A stretch of DNA of 64,000 bases from Lyophyllum atratum (lineage: Eukaryota; Basidiomycota; Agaricomycetes; Agaricales; Lyophyllaceae): assembly GCA_014905825.1 (NCBI GenBank), contig JACGCN010000011.1, positions 1 to 64,000 on the forward strand, written 5' to 3'. The notes beneath the pieces are model-generated. The model made no database searches. It saw nothing but the letters and a program-made list of their open reading frames with translations, and was not told the DNA's origin. Each line of letters begins with the position of its first letter. Within the stretch, counting starts at the first letter, position 1. Positions 47,377 to 56,761 of this stretch are shown here, piece by piece. The position numbers and the translations under genes were made by a program.

Positions 47377-48682
47377 ATGCCAGGCCCCAGCAGCAATCAA
47401 GACGATCCAGATGCTACACCCCCACCACCCCAGCCGCCTTCCCCTACTTTTTCGTCACGTCGCTCTCCCCGTCGCACACCCTCTGGATCCCCTCTGCCAA
47501 TACCCGGAAGTCCACGGCCTGCAGGAATTCCTGTCAATCGAGTGAATAGTAACGGTGAAACGATTGAATAGTAACGGTGAAATGATTGAGATCCATCCAT
47601 TGTTAGACGGTATGAATTTTACACTCACAAACTTTTAATGCCTTCTAAAAGGCTATGCTGTAGGGACACCATGTGATGCCGATGGTTTTGATCTCAACGA
47701 CGACACCATCCCTCCACCTCCTGAACCCCACGACCAGACAGATTTCAGGCCCTTTCCGGATCGGGCAAGATTTGAGTTCGCCGAGTTCCTTTTCACGAAA
47801 GAAGAGATGTCAGCCGGCAATATTGACAAGCTCCTCACTCTCACGACGGCTCTCAATCCTGATCGGCCCCCTCCGTTTTCTGGCCATCAGCATATGTACG
47901 GCTTAATCGACTCGATCAAACAAGGCGACGTACCATGGCAATCATTCAGTGTTACGTATCAAGGTCAACTCCCCGATTCACAACCCATTCCATCATGGAT
48001 GCTTGAAAAATATGAAGTATGGTTCCGTGACCCTCTCGAGGTTCTCGAGAACCAGATGGGCAATCCTGACTTCGACGGCCAGATTGACTATGCACCGAAA
48101 CGGGTCTCTAGAAATGGCAAACGGCGGTACCGGGATCTCATGACGGGAAACTGGTCCTGGGAACAGTGTGTAAGTCATCTCAAATCCACACTTCAGGTAC
48201 TTTGTTCCGACGTTCCCTAACTTTGTAAAAGGATAAGATTGCTGTCGACGAATCTACGCACGGTGCTAGCTTTGTACCTGTCATCTTAGGCAGTGACAAG
48301 ACGACAGTTTCCGTAGCCACTGGACAGAACAAGTATTATCCTCTGTACATTTCACATGGTGGTGTTCACAACTCGGTGCGACGTGCCCATCGAAACGCGG
48401 TCGCACTGGTCAGCTTCCTTGCAATACCAAAGAGTAAGCTGTATCCTATTGATAGCTTTCACTACTTCTTTCTGACTTCGCCTTTCAGCCTCGTGGGATC
48501 ACAAAGACTCACCAGAGTTCCGGAAATTTCGCCGGCAGCTTTTCCATGCATCCCTCGAGCATATACTGAGCTCTCTTCGTCCTCATATGACCAAGCCCCG
48601 TGTGACAAAGTGTGCGGACGGTCACTACCGTAGAGTTATCTATGGCCTTGGTCCTTATATTGCAGACTATCCGGAGCAGGCC
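47377..48682 (+). pseudogene. 5' part of a Plavaka-family transposase gene, split by a copia element
   Basis: Exon 1 starts MPGPSSNQDDPDATPPPP (Pro/Ser-rich). After an intron ending at about 47651 the long second exon has the Plavaka N-terminal hallmarks YAVGTPCDADGFDL, RARFEFAEFLFTKEEMSAG, QHMYGLIDSIKQGDVPWQSF and GNWSWEQC. Further exons give HGASFVPVILGSDKTTVSV, RRAHRNAVALVSFLAIPK and GHYRRVIYGLGPYIADYPEQ. The frame is cut exactly there by the copia insertion and resumes at 53941. Plavaka proteins are CACTA-like DDE transposases found in many agaricomycete genomes. Confidence 0.88.
48678..48682. repeat. Target site duplication AGGCC (left copy, copia)
   Basis: AGGCC before the 5' LTR and again at 53941-53945 after the 3' LTR. 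Confidence 0.95.
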
Positions 48683-48874
48683 TGTTGAGGTTTGACTTGT
48701 TCAAGACCGGTGGTGAAGCCATCAACATTACTATATTTATCTCTTTCGATCATGTTACTATACTTAGACATCCGAGGTCTCGATGCCGAGCATCGAGACT
48801 GTTTTCCTATTCATTCGTGCCGTTCAAGCTTACTCACCATAAAAGTTTTCATAGAAATTTTACTACCACAAAAG

Positions 48875-48882
48875 TATATAAA
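48875..48882 (+). promoter_or_regulatory. Copia LTR TATA box (TATATAAA)
   Basis: It predicts transcription starting near 48905-48912, which is where the repeated 32-bp block begins (48908). The same box is at 53745-53752 in the 3' LTR. Confidence 0.7.
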
Positions 48883-48939
48883 CCCTACTCTAGCCTCGGA
48901 CCACCCTCAGTCGTTTCAACACTTCGTGTCTGACTGAGG

Positions 48940-48992
48940 GTGAGTTCTAATTACTTTACTTCTATTCAAACCTTAACTAATTAATCCTGTAG
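48940..48992 (+). other. Intron-like segment in the LTR (53 bp, GTGAGT...TAACTAAT...TAG)
   Basis: It starts GTGAGT, has a branch-site-like TTAACTAAT 17 bp before the end, and ends CTGTAG. The flanks (32 bp before, about 15-17 bp after) occur a second time at 49024-49070 with this segment missing and the ends joined exactly. The 3' LTR has the same arrangement at 53810-53862 and 53894-53940. Confidence 0.8.
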
Positions 48993-49193
48993 TCTTAAAT
49001 CTCTACAGGTACATATATTAATACAGTCGTTTCAACACTTCGTGTCTGACTGAGGTCTTAAATCTCTACAGGCTATCGGCCCCGCTTGCGCTAGCGCTAT
49101 TTGCTCAATCAGACACTTTCGAAATCGAACTCATACTTCACACACATTCGAGCTACCACACAAAAACCCACACACACTCACTAGCTCTACATC

Positions 49194-52100
49194 ATGACGA
49201 ACACCGGTAACAACAACCCTCCTTTGTTCCCAGAAGAAGAAAAATTCGATGGGTCAAACTACGTCGGTTTCAAAAAGCGAATTCTCATCGCAGCACGACT
49301 TCGCATGGCCGTCGGATACTTAGACGGCACCATCCCTAAACCACCTAACCCAGACGACCCGGGAGACGAGTCCTCGCCCAACCCCGTAGCTATCATCCTT
49401 CCTCCCGAACCCACCGACTGGTCTTCGCGTACTCCGTCCTTTAACGAGTGGGGGTCTAGGGATGCATGGGTCCTGGCCCTGATCGCGTACAACACCAAGA
49501 ACCCTGTGGGGTTAGGTATTGAGATGGATGGGTCCGCTGCCGATGCCTGGAAATCACTTACCAGCAACTACGGCACCACATCGGATCACACAGCTGCTAA
49601 CGCGGAGAGAACCCTCCGTAACACCATCTTCACGAGTGGCGCAGACCTCTCCGAACACATCTCCGACCTTCGTACCAAGTGGGCTTCGGCAGTCGACAAG
49701 GGCGCGAGGATTGACGACAAAGCCTTCCAGGCTATTGTCCTCGGCTCCCTACCCGAGGAGTGGAACACTATCGTCGCCACACTGTACTCTGCAAAGAACT
49801 CAGCCGACGCAATATCCATCCTTAACCTACATTGGGACCGCCTGAAGAGTCAGAAAGCTCGTACATCCTCCACCGCACTTCAGGCGAAGGTGTCGACTAA
49901 ATCCAATGTCACCTGCGCGAACACGAATTGCGGGCGAAAGGGGCATACTATAGAGAACTGCTATTGGCCTGGCGGTGGGAAGGAAGGACAGTTTCCAGCC
50001 CATTTCCGAAACCGCAGCCGCACCCCTAATGGTGACGCCACATCTAACACCCCGAACAAAACCCCTTCCACCACACCTCCTAAACCCACTGCCAACTTAG
50101 CTGACTCCAACAAAACCGCCGACAATGAGTCTAGGGTTGCGTATGCGCTCATGACGAACGCCACTGCCCAATACGCGCCATTTAATCTCCAGGAGCACAG
50201 CATAGAAGATATAGCCACCTACGCCATGGCCGCCCGTTATAGCCAAACCCCTACATATGCCGATTCGGGTGCAAGCAACCACTGTTTCGTCCACCGGTCA
50301 TCCTTTGTCAAATACGAGACCCTCCCAACACCGCTTCGTGGGCAATCCGCGAATAAGGACGTCACCTTTGAGATCGTCGGGAAAGGAACCGTCACTCAGA
50401 TAGTCACCGCAAACGGGGAGGAGACCGAACTCACTTTCCATGACGCCCTTCACACTCCCGGCCTTGCTGCCAACCTCATCTCAATCGGCCGATTCGATGA
50501 CGCTGGGTACTCAGTCACATTCTCTGGAGGGAAAGCGACCTTCTCAGCCCCCGACGGACGCGTCTTCATGATCGGAAAGGGCACGCGCGGCATGTACCTG
50601 TTGGATCCTTGCCTTAGCAAAGCCCCCGCTGTACCTACCCAAGTTATGGTAGCAAAATCGTTGGACGTACCTGCGACACTCGATGTATGGCACCGACGGT
50701 TTGGGCATGCCGGCGTCAGCGGTATTCGCGACCTCGCTAAGAAAGGGTTAGTGGACGGATTACACATAAAGGGAGATATGGATGTGAAAGGGGTGTGCGA
50801 GGACTGTGTGTACGGAAAACACGCAGCTCGACCGTACGACGGGGTGGTCATTCCAGAGTCGAGACGGAACCTGAAGGTGCACATAGACTTGTGGGGTCCG
50901 GCTTCGACGGCTTCACTTGGGGGCGCGTTGTACATGATGCTTTGTGTGGATGGGGGAACGGTACGGATGAGGGGGTTCTTCCTGTCGCGGAAGGATGCGA
51001 AAACCACACTGGAGGCGTTCGTGATCTATCATAAAGAGGCGGAGCGTCAGACGGGGGAAAAGTTGGTGTACGTGCGAATTGATGCGGGGAGAGAGTGGTT
51101 TAATGAGCTGTGGAGGGACTACTGTCAGGAACACGGGATCACCCTGGAGTTTAGCACTCCCTACGCCCACGGACAAAACGGATTAGTCGAGCACTGCATA
51201 CGTACGATCATCGAAGTAGTCCGGTGTATGATCACGGACGGTGGTCTACCCAGATTCCTGTGGGCGGAGGCTGGTGGTACTGCCATTACCCTCCGCAACC
51301 TACTCCCATCGTCTCGGCATCCTGGAGTTGTTCCCGAGGAGGGCTGGACCGGCAAGCGTCAGGGCGTCGCACATCTGCGACCTTTTGGATGCACGGCGTT
51401 TGCTAAAGTCCCCGAGGAATTGGTCGTGTCGAAGCTCGACCCTCGATCGATCAAATACGTCATGGTCGGCTATTCCGACAACGGATACAGATTGTTCGAT
51501 CGCAACTCGCGTGCTATTATTACCAGCCGCGACGTTATCTTTGAGGAAGGTATTGGCCACCGCTCCCTCACCGTGCACGACGACGACGATCTATTGGCAA
51601 CCACTACACCTCCTGACAACCCTGCTACACCTTTTATTATTCACGCCAAGCAGCCTATCGCCGCACGCGTCAGGGAATCTGATGGGCCTGTCCATCCACC
51701 TTCTGCCGAACCCTCTACTCGAACCATCCCACCCACGCCTGCCACGGACGATCCCACACCCACCCCTGCTGCTCCTCGGCAATCCGCCCGACTGGCGAAT
51801 CCCAAACCCTCCAATGCGACCGTCGAAGCTCGTGAGACACTAGCCAGAGAGGAGACTGCGCGTCAGGCTGGTGAGGATTGGGCCACAGATACTCGCCGAC
51901 CGACGGTTCTGGCTGCAGAGAACGCCCATGGATTCCTCGCTTCCCTCACCACTGATGTTAACTCCGACGCTCACGTACCTAAACACTATGGGGAAGCTAT
52001 GCGACGCCCGGATCTTTGGGTCGTGCCGATGGAGGCTGAGCTTGCCGTCCTACAGAAACGAGGGGTGTTCCGGCTCGTCGAAGAGGCTGAGGTACCAGAA

Positions 52101-52301
52101 GGGAAGAAGGTTATAGGATGTATGTGGGTGTTTGCGAATAAGTACGATGCGGAGGGAAACATCGTGAAGAGGAAGGCTAGGTTGGTGGCGAAGGGGTATA
52201 CGCAGGTGCAGGGGGAGGACTTTGATGAAACATATGCCTCCGTCGTCCGACTCGAATCCATCCGCATGACGATTGCTACCACCGCCAAACTCGGTCTATG
52301 A
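49194..52301 (+). CDS. Copia gag, protease, integrase and start of RT (ORF1)
   Basis: ATG 49194 (MTNTGNNNPPLFPEEEKFDG) follows a leader of about 120 bp. The gag core has GSNYVGFKKRILIAARLRM and a zinc knuckle CANTNCGRKGHTIENC (about 49914-49962, CX4C spacing). Protease DSG is in YADSGASNHCF (about 50261). The integrase has an HHCC finger (HRRFGHAG ... CEDCVYGK) and DDE residues in VHIDLWGP, a later conserved D (VRIDAGREWF) and a Glu in HGQNGLVEHC. RT begins VIGCMWVFANKYD and KARLVAKGYTQVQGEDFDET. The frame stops at TGA 52299-52301 within RT and continues in the same frame. Confidence 0.92.
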   Translation: MTNTGNNNPPLFPEEEKFDGSNYVGFKKRILIAARLRMAVGYLDGTIPKPPNPDDPGDESSPNPVAIILPPEPTDWSSRTPSFNEWGSRDAWVLALIAYNTKNPVGLGIEMDGSAADAWKSLTSNYGTTSDHTAANAERTLRNTIFTSGADLSEHISDLRTKWASAVDKGARIDDKAFQAIVLGSLPEEWNTIVATLYSAKNSADAISILNLHWDRLKSQKARTSSTALQAKVSTKSNVTCANTNCGRKGHTIENCYWPGGGKEGQFPAHFRNRSRTPNGDATSNTPNKTPSTTPPKPTANLADSNKTADNESRVAYALMTNATAQYAPFNLQEHSIEDIATYAMAARYSQTPTYADSGASNHCFVHRSSFVKYETLPTPLRGQSANKDVTFEIVGKGTVTQIVTANGEETELTFHDALHTPGLAANLISIGRFDDAGYSVTFSGGKATFSAPDGRVFMIGKGTRGMYLLDPCLSKAPAVPTQVMVAKSLDVPATLDVWHRRFGHAGVSGIRDLAKKGLVDGLHIKGDMDVKGVCEDCVYGKHAARPYDGVVIPESRRNLKVHIDLWGPASTASLGGALYMMLCVDGGTVRMRGFFLSRKDAKTTLEAFVIYHKEAERQTGEKLVYVRIDAGREWFNELWRDYCQEHGITLEFSTPYAHGQNGLVEHCIRTIIEVVRCMITDGGLPRFLWAEAGGTAITLRNLLPSSRHPGVVPEEGWTGKRQGVAHLRPFGCTAFAKVPEELVVSKLDPRSIKYVMVGYSDNGYRLFDRNSRAIITSRDVIFEEGIGHRSLTVHDDDDLLATTTPPDNPATPFIIHAKQPIAARVRESDGPVHPPSAEPSTRTIPPTPATDDPTPTPAAPRQSARLANPKPSNATVEARETLAREETARQAGEDWATDTRRPTVLAAENAHGFLASLTTDVNSDAHVPKHYGEAMRRPDLWVVPMEAELAVLQKRGVFRLVEEAEVPEGKKVIGCMWVFANKYDAEGNIVKRKARLVAKGYTQVQGEDFDETYASVVRLESIRMTIATTAKLGL

Positions 52302-53558
52302 CTATGGCAGATCGACTTTGTATCAGCATACCTTAACAGCGTCAACCAGCACGTCGTATACATGCGGGTTCCTCCAGGGCTTCGAGGGGGGGAGGGGAAG
52401 GTTTGCCTTCTCCTCAAAACCCTGTACGGAATGATGCAGGGAGGGTATGATTGGTGGCATACGCTGAACAAGTCCTACACCAAACTCGGCTACAAAGCGT
52501 CACGCGCAGACAGTTGCGTTCGATCCAGGATAGTCGGAAACGAAAGGACTATAACCAATACCTATACCGACGACACTCTAGGAGTGTCCTCGACGAAGGA
52601 GGGCGAGCAGCAGGCTAAGGACGAACTTGGCTCCGAATACGAGACACAAGACATGGGGGAGTTGAAGTTTATCTTAGGCATGCGTGTCGACCAGAATTCT
52701 ACCACCGGCGCCATCTCCCTTTCCCAGCGAACCTACCTCGAGCGAGTCCTCGAACGATTTGGCATGAAAGACTGCAACCCCCATTACACTCCACTCCCCT
52801 CCGGCATTCACTTAGTCGAGTCTCAGTCCCCAAGCACCGAAGCTGACCGTGTCTTTATGAAGGATAAGCCCTATCGTGAAGTCCTCGGGTCGCTCATGTG
52901 GGCACAAGTAGCCACCCGACCTGATCTCTCATACGCCGTCGGTTTGCTCGCCAGGTTCCAATCTAATCCCGGCCCAGCTCATTGGAACGCCATGCTCCAT
53001 GTATTGGGGTATGTAAAAGGAACCCTACACTATTCGATTACCTATTCGAAGGACGTCGGGGATCTCAAACCCCTCGGGTACGTAGACTCCGACTACGGGG
53101 GAGACTTCGACACCAGGCGCTCCACCGGCGGTTACGTGTTCCTCATGGCTAATGGGCCAGTCTCGTGGAGTTCGAAACGCCAACCAACCGTCGCCTTATC
53201 CACCACGGAAGCAGAATATATGGCGCTTACCCGGGGTGCCCAGCAGGCCCTTTGGATGCACAATTTCATGCTCGAGATCGACTTACCCCAATCCCTTCCC
53301 GCCATACTCCATGTCGACAACACCTCCGCTATGGCACTCGCTCAATCCACCAAAGGACACTCCCGCGCCAAACATATTGATATCCGCCATCACTACGTTC
53401 GCGAACGCGTCCAGGATGGGGACATTCAAATCACGCATATTCCCTCCACCGAAAATCCTGCCGATATTTTCACCAAGCCTCTTTCCCGGGCGCTACACGA
53501 GCACATGATTGACCTCCTTCACCTTGATTCGGGTCTTGCCCGTCAGGGGGAGTGTTGA
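52302..53558 (+). CDS. Copia RT (rest) and RNase H, after an in-frame TGA
   Basis: It continues the same frame (LWQIDFVSAYLNSV); first ATG at 52362. The RT catalytic site is YTDD (52563-52574) where YVDD is usual. RNase H has YVDSDYGGDFDTRRSTGG, VALSTTEAEYMAL and DIRHHYVRE, ending ENPADIFTKPLS. The stop TGA (53556-53558) is inside the first six bases of the 3' LTR, and a GGGGGAG polypurine tract precedes it. With the internal TGA unread, this copy makes no complete RT. Confidence 0.88.
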   Translation, partial: LWQIDFVSAYLNSVNQHVVYMRVPPGLRGGEGKVCLLLKTLYGMMQGGYDWWHTLNKSYTKLGYKASRADSCVRSRIVGNERTITNTYTDDTLGVSSTKEGEQQAKDELGSEYETQDMGELKFILGMRVDQNSTTGAISLSQRTYLERVLERFGMKDCNPHYTPLPSGIHLVESQSPSTEADRVFMKDKPYREVLGSLMWAQVATRPDLSYAVGLLARFQSNPGPAHWNAMLHVLGYVKGTLHYSITYSKDVGDLKPLGYVDSDYGGDFDTRRSTGGYVFLMANGPVSWSSKRQPTVALSTTEAEYMALTRGAQQALWMHNFMLEIDLPQSLPAILHVDNTSAMALAQSTKGHSRAKHIDIRHHYVRERVQDGDIQITHIPSTENPADIFTKPLSRALHEHMIDLLHLDSGLARQGEC

Positions 53559-53940
53559 GGTTTGACTTGTTCAAGACCGGCGGTGAAGCCATCAACATTA
53601 CTATATTTATCTCTTTCGATCATGTTACTATACTTAGACATCCGAGGTCTCGATGCCGAGCATTGAGACTGTTTTCCTATTCATTCGTGCCGTTCAAGCT
53701 TACTCACCATAAAAGTTTTCATAGAAATTTTACTACCACAAAAGTATATAAACCCTACTCTAGCCTCGGACCACCCTCAGTCGTTTCAACACTTCGTGTC
53801 TGACTGAGGGTGAGTTCTAATTACTTTACTTCTATTCAAACCTTAACTAATTAATCCTGTAGTCTTAAATCTCTACAGGTACATATATTAATACAGTCGT
53901 TTCAACACTTCGTGTCTGACTGAGGTCTTGAATCTCTACA
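53553..53940 (+). repeat. 3' LTR of the copia element
   Basis: 388 bp, three differences from the 5' LTR (ggc/ggt early, att/atc in gagcat, tcttg/tctta near the end). Same intron-like and spliced-like pair. Confidence 0.95.
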
Positions 53941-55933
53941 AGGCCCTCCTTGCTTGTATCGTGCAAAATTGGTGTGCCAAGTACGTTCCCTTGACACTTG
54001 TCTTGATATCATATTAACATCGTCGTCAGATGCACTGGCAAGCCTGATGATCTTGATGGTGGCGGGATACCTCGGTCTCATGAACATACGTCCCTGTTGC
54101 TTGAGACGTTCACATTGAAGGATTTGTGGGAGTCTTATGGGGTTGTCGGAGATCTAGTGGTATGTCACTGCACGCCGTAATATTCTGTCAATTTGCTTAC
54201 ACCTTTCTATAGCCGTTTACTGATTCTTTCCCAAGGGCGGACATTCACGAACTCCTTGCGCCAGACCTCCTCCATCAAATCATCAAGGGAACTTTTAAGG
54301 ACCACCTCGTCGACTGGGTCGGAGATTACATCAAGTCAGCATACAAGGACACCTCTCGTCGTCCAGCCGAAGTCTTGGCTGACATCGATAGAAGGCAAGT
54401 ATATCTATTCAACATCAATATGTCGCATGCCTTACCGACCCTTGTAGAATTGCTGCCGCTCCACCCTTCCCTGGTCTTCGGCGCTTTCCACAGGGCAGAG
54501 GTTTCAAACAGTGGACGGGTAACGACTCGAAGGGGCTGATGAAGGTACGGTACTTCAGAATTCTTGATTGCGGCTAAAGCTGACTTGTCCAGGTATACCT
54601 TGCAGCAATTCACGGCCACGTACCTGCCTGGATGACGCGCGCTGTTGCCGCACTGATCGACTTCTGTTACCTTGTACGGCGGTCCACAATCGATGAAGAT
54701 GCTCTGGCTTCCATTCAAGACGCACTCTCACGCTTCCACCGTTACCGCGAGGTATTCCGAAATACAGGTGTCCGACCAGAAGGCTTTTCACTCCCTCGCC
54801 AACACTCACTCATCCACTACCCTTTCCTCATCACTCAGTTTGGTGCTCCGAACGGCTTATGTTCATCCATTACCGAGTCCAAGCACATCAAAGCGGTCAA
54901 ACGGCCATACCGTCGTTCCAACAAGAACAAGCCCCTTGGCCAGATGTTGGTCACCAATCAACGCCTCGACAAACTGGCCGCCGCCAGCGTTTTCTTTGAG
55001 AGTCATCAAATGCTGAGCAGCCCTGGTTCCCCCATCATCGCAGCCCTTCAACAGCTCGATCTTCAAGCAGCTGCTCCACAACCCGCGCCATCTCCTCAAA
55101 CAATGTCGGTGCCGCTGCGGCTACCACCTGATCCGCTGGAAGCTCATGACATGGGGGAAGTAGATGGCCCGAGGTCGATGTCAGAGATATCATTAGCAAA
55201 GACACATGGTGCGTAAAAATCTGGCCCTTGAACGCGTTCAATTGTCTCACCAATGACGTCAGTCCGCAAGGTGCCTTCGAATATCAATAGTCTCGCTACC
55301 CACATCAAACAACCCGACCTTCCCGAACTGACCTCCCGTTTCCTCTACAACCAACTTCACCCCGATGCCGACATCCCGGCTGTGCAGCTTTCTCGCGATC
55401 AGCTCCCGGTGATCCACAGCAAAGTGCGAATATTCAATTCCGCTCGAGCCGTCTTCTATGCTCCAAGCGACCTCTCTGGAATTGGTGGGATGCGGCATGA
55501 ACGAATCCGTGCTGCGAGGTCTTGGTACGGGGGTGCGCCGCGCTATGATTGCGTGTTTGTAGGGAAGTCGGACGAGGCAGGTTTCCGAGGGCTGCATGTT
55601 GCCCGTGTATTCCTTTTATTTTCCTTCATCCATGACGGCATAACTTACCCTTGTGCGCTCGTTCAGTGGTTCTCGACCGTCGGTGATTCCCCGTGTCCAG
55701 ACACTGGGATGTGGATGGTTGAGCCAGATGTTCGGTTGAGGAGGGGACGTCTGCGGCGCGTGCTAGAGGTTATTCATCTTGACTCGATCATGCGCGGTGC
55801 GCATCTCATGGGAGTTTCTGGTAAACACTTCCTTCCTTCGCAGGGTTTTGACTTCACGACTGCTTTAAACCGCTTCCATACATTCTTTGTTAACAAATTC
55901 GCCGACCACCACGCGCACGAGGTTGCCTTTTGA
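53941..55933 (+). pseudogene. 3' part of the split Plavaka transposase
   Basis: It resumes at the target duplication as LLACIVQNWC. Then come exons with CTGKPDDLDGGG, PFTDSFPRADIHELLAPDLL, HQIIKGTFKDHLVDWVGDY, GRGFKQWTGNDSKGLMK, VYLAAIHGHVPAWMTRAV, HSLIHYPFLITQFGAPNG, SSITESKHIKAVKRPYRRSN and LGQMLVTNQRLDKLAAASVF, all Plavaka hallmarks. The last exon (about 55259-55933) is the conserved C-terminal domain (FYAPSDLSGIGGMRHERIRA ... FFVNKFADHHAHEVAF). Introns are at about 53981-54028, 54161-54212, 54395-54447, 54545-54591 and 55210-55258. No stops or frameshifts seen apart from the copia insertion. Confidence 0.88.
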
Positions 55934-56028: not shown

Positions 56029-56761
56029 TGATATATCAAAAGCCCGTGGCTGTAGGAGGGCCCTGATGTATCAAAGCCCACAGCTTGTGGGCTCTTATGA
56101 TATATCATTGGGCCAATGATATATCGTCTGCCTACTATACTTTACAGGTCCGTTTCGGACTCAGACTTCTCCCATTCCCTCATCTGCTTCCACGGCTCCC
56201 CCGTTCCCGCCCTCCTTCCTAATCCATACCATTGTCCCCTGTCATCCCGACCATCATCTCCTTCGGGACATCGCTATATTTAGGTCCCTTGCTACGCGTA
56301 GTACTGTAAAATCCTCCATTGCCTGGCTAAATTTAGGTCTCTCACCATGCCTCCTCCCCATTCCCTCATCCACTTCCACAGCTCCCCCGTTCCCGGCCTC
56401 CTTCCTAATTCATACCATTGATTGTCCCCTGCCATCCCGACCATCGTCTCCTATATATTCACATCCCTTGCCACGTGTGGCACTGTAAAATTACCCATTG
56501 CCTTGGCTATATTTAGGCCTCTCACGGACGTTCACATGGCTGGATGATATATCACCTAGTTGAATGATATATCACACAGCTCGCGACAAACAGGATGTGC
56601 GTGATATATCATCGACTCACAATACTTAGATGATATATCACTGACTTATCAATATGGGTTTCACAATAGACGATATATCACTGAGTTATAAATGTCCGTG
56701 ATATATCATCGACTTACAATACTTAGATGATATATCATTGAATCCGCGCTTTGATATATCA
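56029..56761. repeat. Array of twelve TGATATATCA palindromes
   Basis: Copies start at 56029, 56064 (TGATGTATCA), 56098, 56117 (last base G), 56545, 56565, 56602, 56631, 56671 (first base C), 56699, 56728 and 56752. Nine are exact. The 56098/56117 pair forms a larger inverted repeat around CATTGGgCCAATG, and AGCCCACAgctTGTGGGCT (56076-56095 region) sits between two of them. Such dense short motifs next to a transposase gene resemble subterminal transposase-binding repeats. Confidence 0.85.
56171..56526. repeat. Imperfect tandem repeat, period about 186 bp
   Basis: Both copies start CCCATTCCCTCATC (56171 and 56357), share CTCCCCCGTTCCC..CCTCCTTCCTAAT (shown in parts) and end with TATATTTAGG/AAATTTAGG-CTCTCAC. 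Confidence 0.8.

Follow-up and report, generated by a model that had tools for sequence, protein, structure and literature searches.

How can a retrotransposon keep an intron inside its long terminal repeat (LTR), side by side with an exact intron-less copy of the same region, when introns are normally lost once spliced RNA is reverse transcribed? The question is raised by a Ty1/copia element in the first 64,000 nucleotides of Lyophyllum atratum contig JACGCN010000011.1 (forward strand; hereafter the window). The answer that we consider likely is that its LTR contains a spliced RNA leader that is rewritten during the replication cycle. The element has two 388-bp LTRs (48683–49070 and 53553–53940, on the forward strand like all features below), which match at 99% with three substitutions between them, carry the TG..CA ends of Ty1/copia elements and are flanked by a 5-bp target-site duplication, AGGCC (48678–48682 and 53941–53945).

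Each LTR has the order U3-A1-intron-B1-linker-A2-B2, where U3 is the unique 3′ region and A2B2 equals A1B1 minus 53 nt. In the 5′ LTR, a 32-bp block (48908–48939) is followed by 53 bp reading GTGAGT...TTAACTAAT...TGTAG (48940–48992) and then by TCTTAAATCTCTACAGG; after TACATATATTAATA (49010–49023), which separates the copies, the block returns (49024–49055) joined to TCTTAAATCTCTACA (49056–49070), the exact intron-less product. A TATA box, TATATAAA (48875–48882), stands 34 nt upstream of A48909, the putative RNA start, whose position is mirrored by the start of A2. With this start, exon A1 spans 48909–48939, intron 1 is the 53-nt segment 48940–48992, exon B1 (48993–49008) ends in CTACAG, the linker occupies 49009–49024 and A2B2, the spliced form of A1B1, lies at 49025–49070 (A2, 49025–49055; B2, 49056–49070), directly against a putative primer-binding site (PBS; 49071–49083) to which relatives have similar sequence. 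The 3′ LTR repeats the arrangement from the end of U3 to B2 (53768–53940), one of the three substitutions being private to its B2. An earlier note on this DNA had described the block, the GTGAGT..TAG segment and the intron-less second copy, and rereading the window confirms both structure and coordinates. Its proposal that the second copy corresponds to the spliced 5′ end of an RNA starting near 48908, downstream of the TATA box at 48875, is supported with the start refined to A48909, and the 3′ LTR bears out its view that the architecture is inherited through retrotransposition. A second intron, a complementarity between U3 and the intron-1 donor and a hypervariable junction base, described below, were absent from it.

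We searched the host genome (64.8 Mb, 151 contigs), the one genome that the survey covers, with the C-terminal part of pol, which gave at least 105 matches, some elements counting twice. The LTR end was examined for 70 of the 105, namely 30 with loci (the window included) and 40 picked by hand, mostly with an intact C-terminus. The combination of an intron and an intron-free leader copy is general among these copia LTRs, well beyond the window element: the full A-i-B-L-A-B structure (i, intron; L, linker) is present in 48 of the 70 ends, which represent 33 families, defined as clusters at 90% of A plus intron, and the pol identity of their elements to the window falls to 33% (L121, L122). L042, whose 3′ LTR is cut, is counted from its 5′ LTR. 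The remaining ends comprise one without intron 1 (L083), three reading X-GT..linker-X′ without the inner intron (L099, L104, L114), eleven with a single X (L026–L033, L041 and L051, nearest to the window in pol identity, together with L109 from the L104 group) and seven in which the structure was not found or the LTR was cut (L098, L105, L106, L108, L110, L115, L119). In L083, A1B1-linker-A2B2 is intact and intron 1 is exactly missing, apparently from both LTRs, as the same alignment break occurs in each. Its group mates L054 and L084 retain the intron, whose edges share AG at most.

The parser that recognises the structure detects none in 82 other chunks of the window and none in 144 shuffled LTR regions. 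Run without any splice-site rule, the parser yields GT-AG precisely at the borders of the missing segment, among its best registers, for 48/48; among the other LTR ends tried, the single match was a repeat in L106 unlike the A-i-B-L-A-B pattern. A spacer of unrelated sequence, which the earlier note had named as the mark of an old tandem repeat, is found in none of the 48. Apart from the window element, 28 elements had their 5′ LTR region retrieved. The parser recognizes the structure in 17 of these regions, and L079, which departs from it by a single substitution in A1, makes an eighteenth; L073 is limited to U3-A-B, eight regions come from single-X elements and L059 has no visible LTR. Because the parser demands exact repeats, departures were sought by eye. 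A single change in one copy of one LTR is seen in the window 3′ LTR (B2), L079 (A1) and L081 (A2), and larger departures are a 4-bp insertion in B2 of L037 and a cut B2 in L097. L044 and L073 belong to one insertion (C108; GGATG on both sides) with unequal LTRs, the 5′ one reading U3-A-B only and the 3′ one being full; it fits splicing but was set aside as proof of it, since simple deletion between the A repeats would lead to the same LTR, and L109 likewise. L003 and L004 are degraded LTR pieces resembling that of the window; they repeat CTACAGGTACATA-like motifs, and A1 is not clear in them.

Is the second copy an old duplicate, or is it made anew? Between families, the identity of A1 has a median of 0.61 (range, 0.47 to 1.00). 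As A is defined as an exact repeat, counting mirrored differences is a fairer test than the identity of the two copies: in seven disjoint element pairs whose exons are equally long, every one of the 29 differences in A1B1 recurs in A2B2. Six differences confined to second copies belong without exception to one pair, L097/L103, in which B2 of L097 is cut. A second copy followed by an intron start, or more than two A units, is found in 0/48. Copies that are alike within an LTR and different between families rule out a single old duplication, and this pattern of differences indicates that A2B2 is renewed and is not one old capture.

Related families are hypervariable at the base immediately before A2. 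Of 14 near-identical LTR pairs, which are partly non-independent, 6 differ there, as compared with differences at 29 of 4948 other sites (0.6%) and, at the base before A1, in none of the 14. In six groups extended by short fetches, the base before A2 is polymorphic in 6/6, with A, C and T all present in the L111 group, and the other 204 of 210 positions are invariant; four of these groups were selected after variation had been noticed, so that the 14-pair figure is the fairer one, and the C84 pair, of a different subfamily, was excluded. Presumed LTR pairs of the same insertion, judged by spacing, agree at this base in 9/9. In the window it is C49024, the last base of the linker. Such variation is what terminal errors at first-strand transfer would leave; errors of this kind occur at the border between U3 and the repeat region R of retroviruses. 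Recombination near the U3/R border has been described for fission yeast elements. The position of the variable base suggests it as the landing point of a strong-stop complementary DNA (cDNA) that stops at the 5′ end of the RNA. Since the linker is constant within groups and the junction base alone varies, the transfer seems to be guided by homology to A2. A jump of the strong-stop cDNA to the RNA 3′ end (possibly ragged) at the linker is disfavored by the same invariance.

Intron 1 measures 49–62 nt across families, and a branch-like motif lies at most 21 nt from its 3′ end in 33/33, by three lax patterns used without a shuffle control. A TATA-like motif (at least five of seven positions) is found 31–34 nt upstream of A1 in 21 of the 33 families. 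If the renewed copy is A1B1 placed beside the PBS, the 5′ leader must lose not only intron 1 but also the linker and A2B2. This second segment opens with GT after a YAG at the end of B1 in all 33 families, its start having been set by code that takes, of the AG|GT sites, the one closest to where the repeat stops. Where the LTR runs past B2, as judged from the PBS position or from tails in common, YAG|GT marks the end of the repeat (L048–L050, L101/L107, L102, L111/L113/L118, L116, L117), except that L049 has two chance-shared bases beyond it. In the window, the candidate intron 2 would be 63 nt long (49009–49071; GT-linker+A2+B2), with its CAG acceptor completed by G49071, the first base outside the LTR. 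In such window-like families the acceptor G would thus come from the PBS side at the 5′ LTR, and at the 3′ LTR it would be there by chance alone. The second intron is clearest in L099 and L104, which carry it alone in textbook form, X-GTGAGT..CTAAC..X′CAG, 53 nt long. From sequence alone, we infer that both introns are spliced from the 5′ leader, the precise loss in L083 being an indirect sign for intron 1. As a separate observation on LTR tails, L077, L078 and L080 (5′ LTR ends of the L048, L049 and L052 elements) end in CCATAAC followed by GGTTATGG or GGTTAGG, which resembles an inverted copy of the PBS core.

The end of U3 is complementary to the intron-1 splice donor region of its own family. 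In the window this arm (48898–48908) would be present only in RNA from the 3′ LTR, if transcription starts at A48909. Over the 33 families, pairing between U3 positions −1 to −7 and the donor region fills 229 of 231 cells, and a single position can show as many as six pair types; the donor U faces G in five families and C in two. Pairs total 270 out of 330, whereas none of 5000 permutations exceeded 234. The predicted mean cost of opening the donor is 6.2 kcal/mol in RNA from +1; with U3 present it is 16.6 if U3 is the family's own, 7.8 if it is shuffled and 11.7 if it is taken from other families. With its own U3, the cost is at least 5 kcal above that of the +1 RNA in 33/33 families and exceeds all 40 shuffles in 30/33. 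Mean unpaired probability, which does not separate 5′ from 3′ RNA, was dropped as a hairpin measure in favor of opening energy. The arm recurs over the donor of L099 and L104, and weakly in L114; it is absent from the folds of nine single-X LTRs. As U3 would be in the RNA at the 3′ end only, the predicted hairpin could hide the donor there and so occlude it in 3′ LTR RNA.

These observations can be joined into a proposed replication cycle. The RNA would start at A1 of the 5′ LTR, and intron 1 and the second intron (linker, A2 and B2) would be removed from its 5′ end, giving a leader A1-B1-PBS. In the RNA of the 3′ LTR, the U3 end would fold onto the intron-1 donor, so that intron 1 is retained, and the polyadenylation (poly(A)) site would lie at or after A2. 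Reverse transcription would prime at the PBS and copy the spliced leader up to its 5′ end, and the strong-stop cDNA would then move to A2, close to the 3′ end of the RNA, guided by homology. Transfer onto A2 would compose the new LTR of A1-intron-B1-linker from the 3′ copy and of A2B2 from the spliced leader. With less assurance, we lean toward the view that such elements form a widespread fungal copia class, in which start and transfer sites lie apart, the LTR holds unspliced and spliced leader copies, the spliced one is rewritten from RNA, a U3 hairpin formed at the 3′ end only preserves the intron, and the 5′ transfer site, perhaps with the poly(A) site, is spliced out.

Several points weigh against this cycle. 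Its evidence is DNA sequence, from one genome. The retention of intron 2 at the 3′ end is unaccounted for where YAG falls inside the LTR, and so is the reason why eleven single-X elements manage without the structure. The junction base is left unrenewed in some cycles: 8 of the 14 pairs agree, and CC is common to L037–L039. The register of the pair count was chosen after folds had been seen, the arm of L114 is weak (10 of 100), and in three of the 33 families one of 40 shuffles matched the opening energy of the own U3. The mean unpaired probability of the donor is non-discriminating (0.20 from +1, 0.156 with U3, 0.206 with shuffled U3, 0.195 with other U3); as it hardly shifts, the claim is that the donor is held more tightly, not that it is naked in one state. 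Among contigs of other genomes, 11 were copia-like and eight of these had at least 400 bp downstream of pol; the structure was seen in 0/8 of these distant contigs, where the LTRs were not delimited.

Other histories could yield two such copies. One ancient capture of a spliced leader cDNA, with both copies inherited since then as a tandem repeat, would account for A2 beginning at the start site and for the missing intron. The copies should then have diverged, yet all 29 differences are mirrored and the median identity of A between families is 0.61, and we regard this history as very unlikely. The earlier note had favored a one-off origin, a template switch between spliced and unspliced RNA that built the window LTR, with intron gain in one of two tandem copies as the alternative. 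The former finds no support in a structure common to 33 families, at pol identities down to 33%, with copies alike within LTRs; the latter conflicts with this likeness within LTRs combined with difference between families. What stands of its interpretation is the intron-like segment, the spliced-type second copy and their inheritance; the single template switch does not. Tandem repeats do homogenize, and gene conversion, slippage or repeat expansion and contraction could keep the copies alike with splicing unneeded in the cycle; the single-X LTRs of L073 and L109 could be repeat deletions of this kind. However, tracts running over the A/B border would put the intron in copy 2 or strip it from copy 1, in contrast to the absence of intron starts after the second copy and of supernumerary A units in all 48 ends, and homogenization predicts no hypervariable base exactly before A2. 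We consider it improbable as the explanation.

The RNA might instead begin at A2, A1-intron-B1-linker being a mere regulatory duplicate in U3. A hypervariable U3/R junction would suit a start site at A2, but the TATA-like motif precedes A1 by 31–34 nt in 21 of 33 families, and a start at A2 gives no reason for the match between A1B1 and A2B2, the GT-AG edges or the branch-like motifs; this reading is hardly credible. The last one overlaps with the rewriting of the leader, as renewal is common to both: the inverted repeat between U3 and the donor may serve another use, such as a promoter palindrome or a transfer hairpin, and the 3′ intron may be kept otherwise, for instance by poor splicing of a terminal intron. 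The unchanged mean unpaired probability of the donor and an arm that spans the start site speak for it. On the other side, the arm follows the donor sequence, down to a G that faces the donor U in five of the 33 families, and recurs in L099 and L104 while being unseen in the nine single-X LTRs folded. Another use of the repeat is possible, though we think it unlikely.

The rewriting of a spliced leader would set these elements apart from known systems in a few respects. Ordinary LTRs consist of U3-R-U5 with one R, U5 being the unique 5′ region; unlike in ordinary Ty1/copia elements, the putative start and transfer sites here are two separate places in the LTR. Retroelement RNAs can be spliced, as in Drosophila copia and Ogre, whose introns lie in or span the internal region, whereas here one and the same LTR keeps an intron and has the spliced form written into it as well. 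As pol, the LTR ends and the target duplication are ordinary, we regard the elements as a variant of LTR retrotransposon and not as a separate kind. Foamy virus acceptors lie outside the LTR, and the virus is not known to have a whole intron in its LTR or a spliced leader copy built into it, whereas in the host copia elements the predicted donor, acceptor and renewed copy are all inside the LTR. According to one study, the major splice donor of foamy virus lies in R and is occluded in the 3′ LTR, RNA that includes the end of U3 (−13 to −1) has another fold at the donor than +1 RNA, and donor use differs between the 5′ and 3′ LTRs in a manner linked to poly(A) choice (PMC3694450). The likeness consists in a splice donor within the LTR and perhaps in a U3-dependent donor structure, which in the copia elements opening energy and pair counts favor and unpaired probability does not, and for which foamy virus is a tested precedent (PMC3694450). 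We recognized no report of an intron inside an LTR or of a renewed spliced copy, in a partial coverage of the literature without most subscription journals and all preprints. A search for the structure outside the host genome found no relative in the viral contig collection.

The elements thus appear to preserve an LTR intron by unequal handling of the two RNA ends, the spliced form being used in the new LTR. If true, this adds a step to the textbook cycle, makes a record of splicing and start site readable from DNA alone, and gives the foamy virus trick a second instance, in an element that is unrelated to it. It would also mean that the 5′ transfer site, perhaps with the poly(A) site, leaves as an intron, so that poly(A) signals are used at the 3′ end only. 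For annotation, the usual rules fail to assign R and U5 in A-i-B-L-A-B LTRs.

The copia coding region of the window element (49194–53558) has the gag-integrase-reverse transcriptase (RT) order typical of Ty1/copia: Retrotran_gag_2 (copia-type), gag_pre-integrs, rve, SH3_retrovirus and RVT_2, the rve match being weak (24 bits for a cut-off of 32.6). An in-frame stop at 52299–52301 divides gag-pol into same-frame open reading frames of 1035 and 398 amino acids, and several relatives keep a single long frame. Protein relatives are named copia or Ty1/copia RT, the best named ones being from Lyophyllum, Mycena, Termitomyces, Agaricus and Lentinula. Directly 3′ of the LTRs stand GG-TATCGG / GGTTATGGG, a putative PBS that may be of the half-transfer RNA (tRNA)-iMet type expected of Ty1/copia; many relatives have a GG-TATGGG-like sequence there. 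Fungal PBSs against tRNA anticodon loops, initiator methionine tRNA (iMet) included, are described for Helenus (PMC10886601). The 11 copia-like contigs from outside the host genome (L151–L161) are deposited as bacterial genomes, probably as eukaryotic contamination. Downstream of the window element lie two pairs of short direct repeats, at 56171–56420 (64 nt, 186 apart) and 56595–56741 (50 nt, 97 apart, with GATATATCA motifs).
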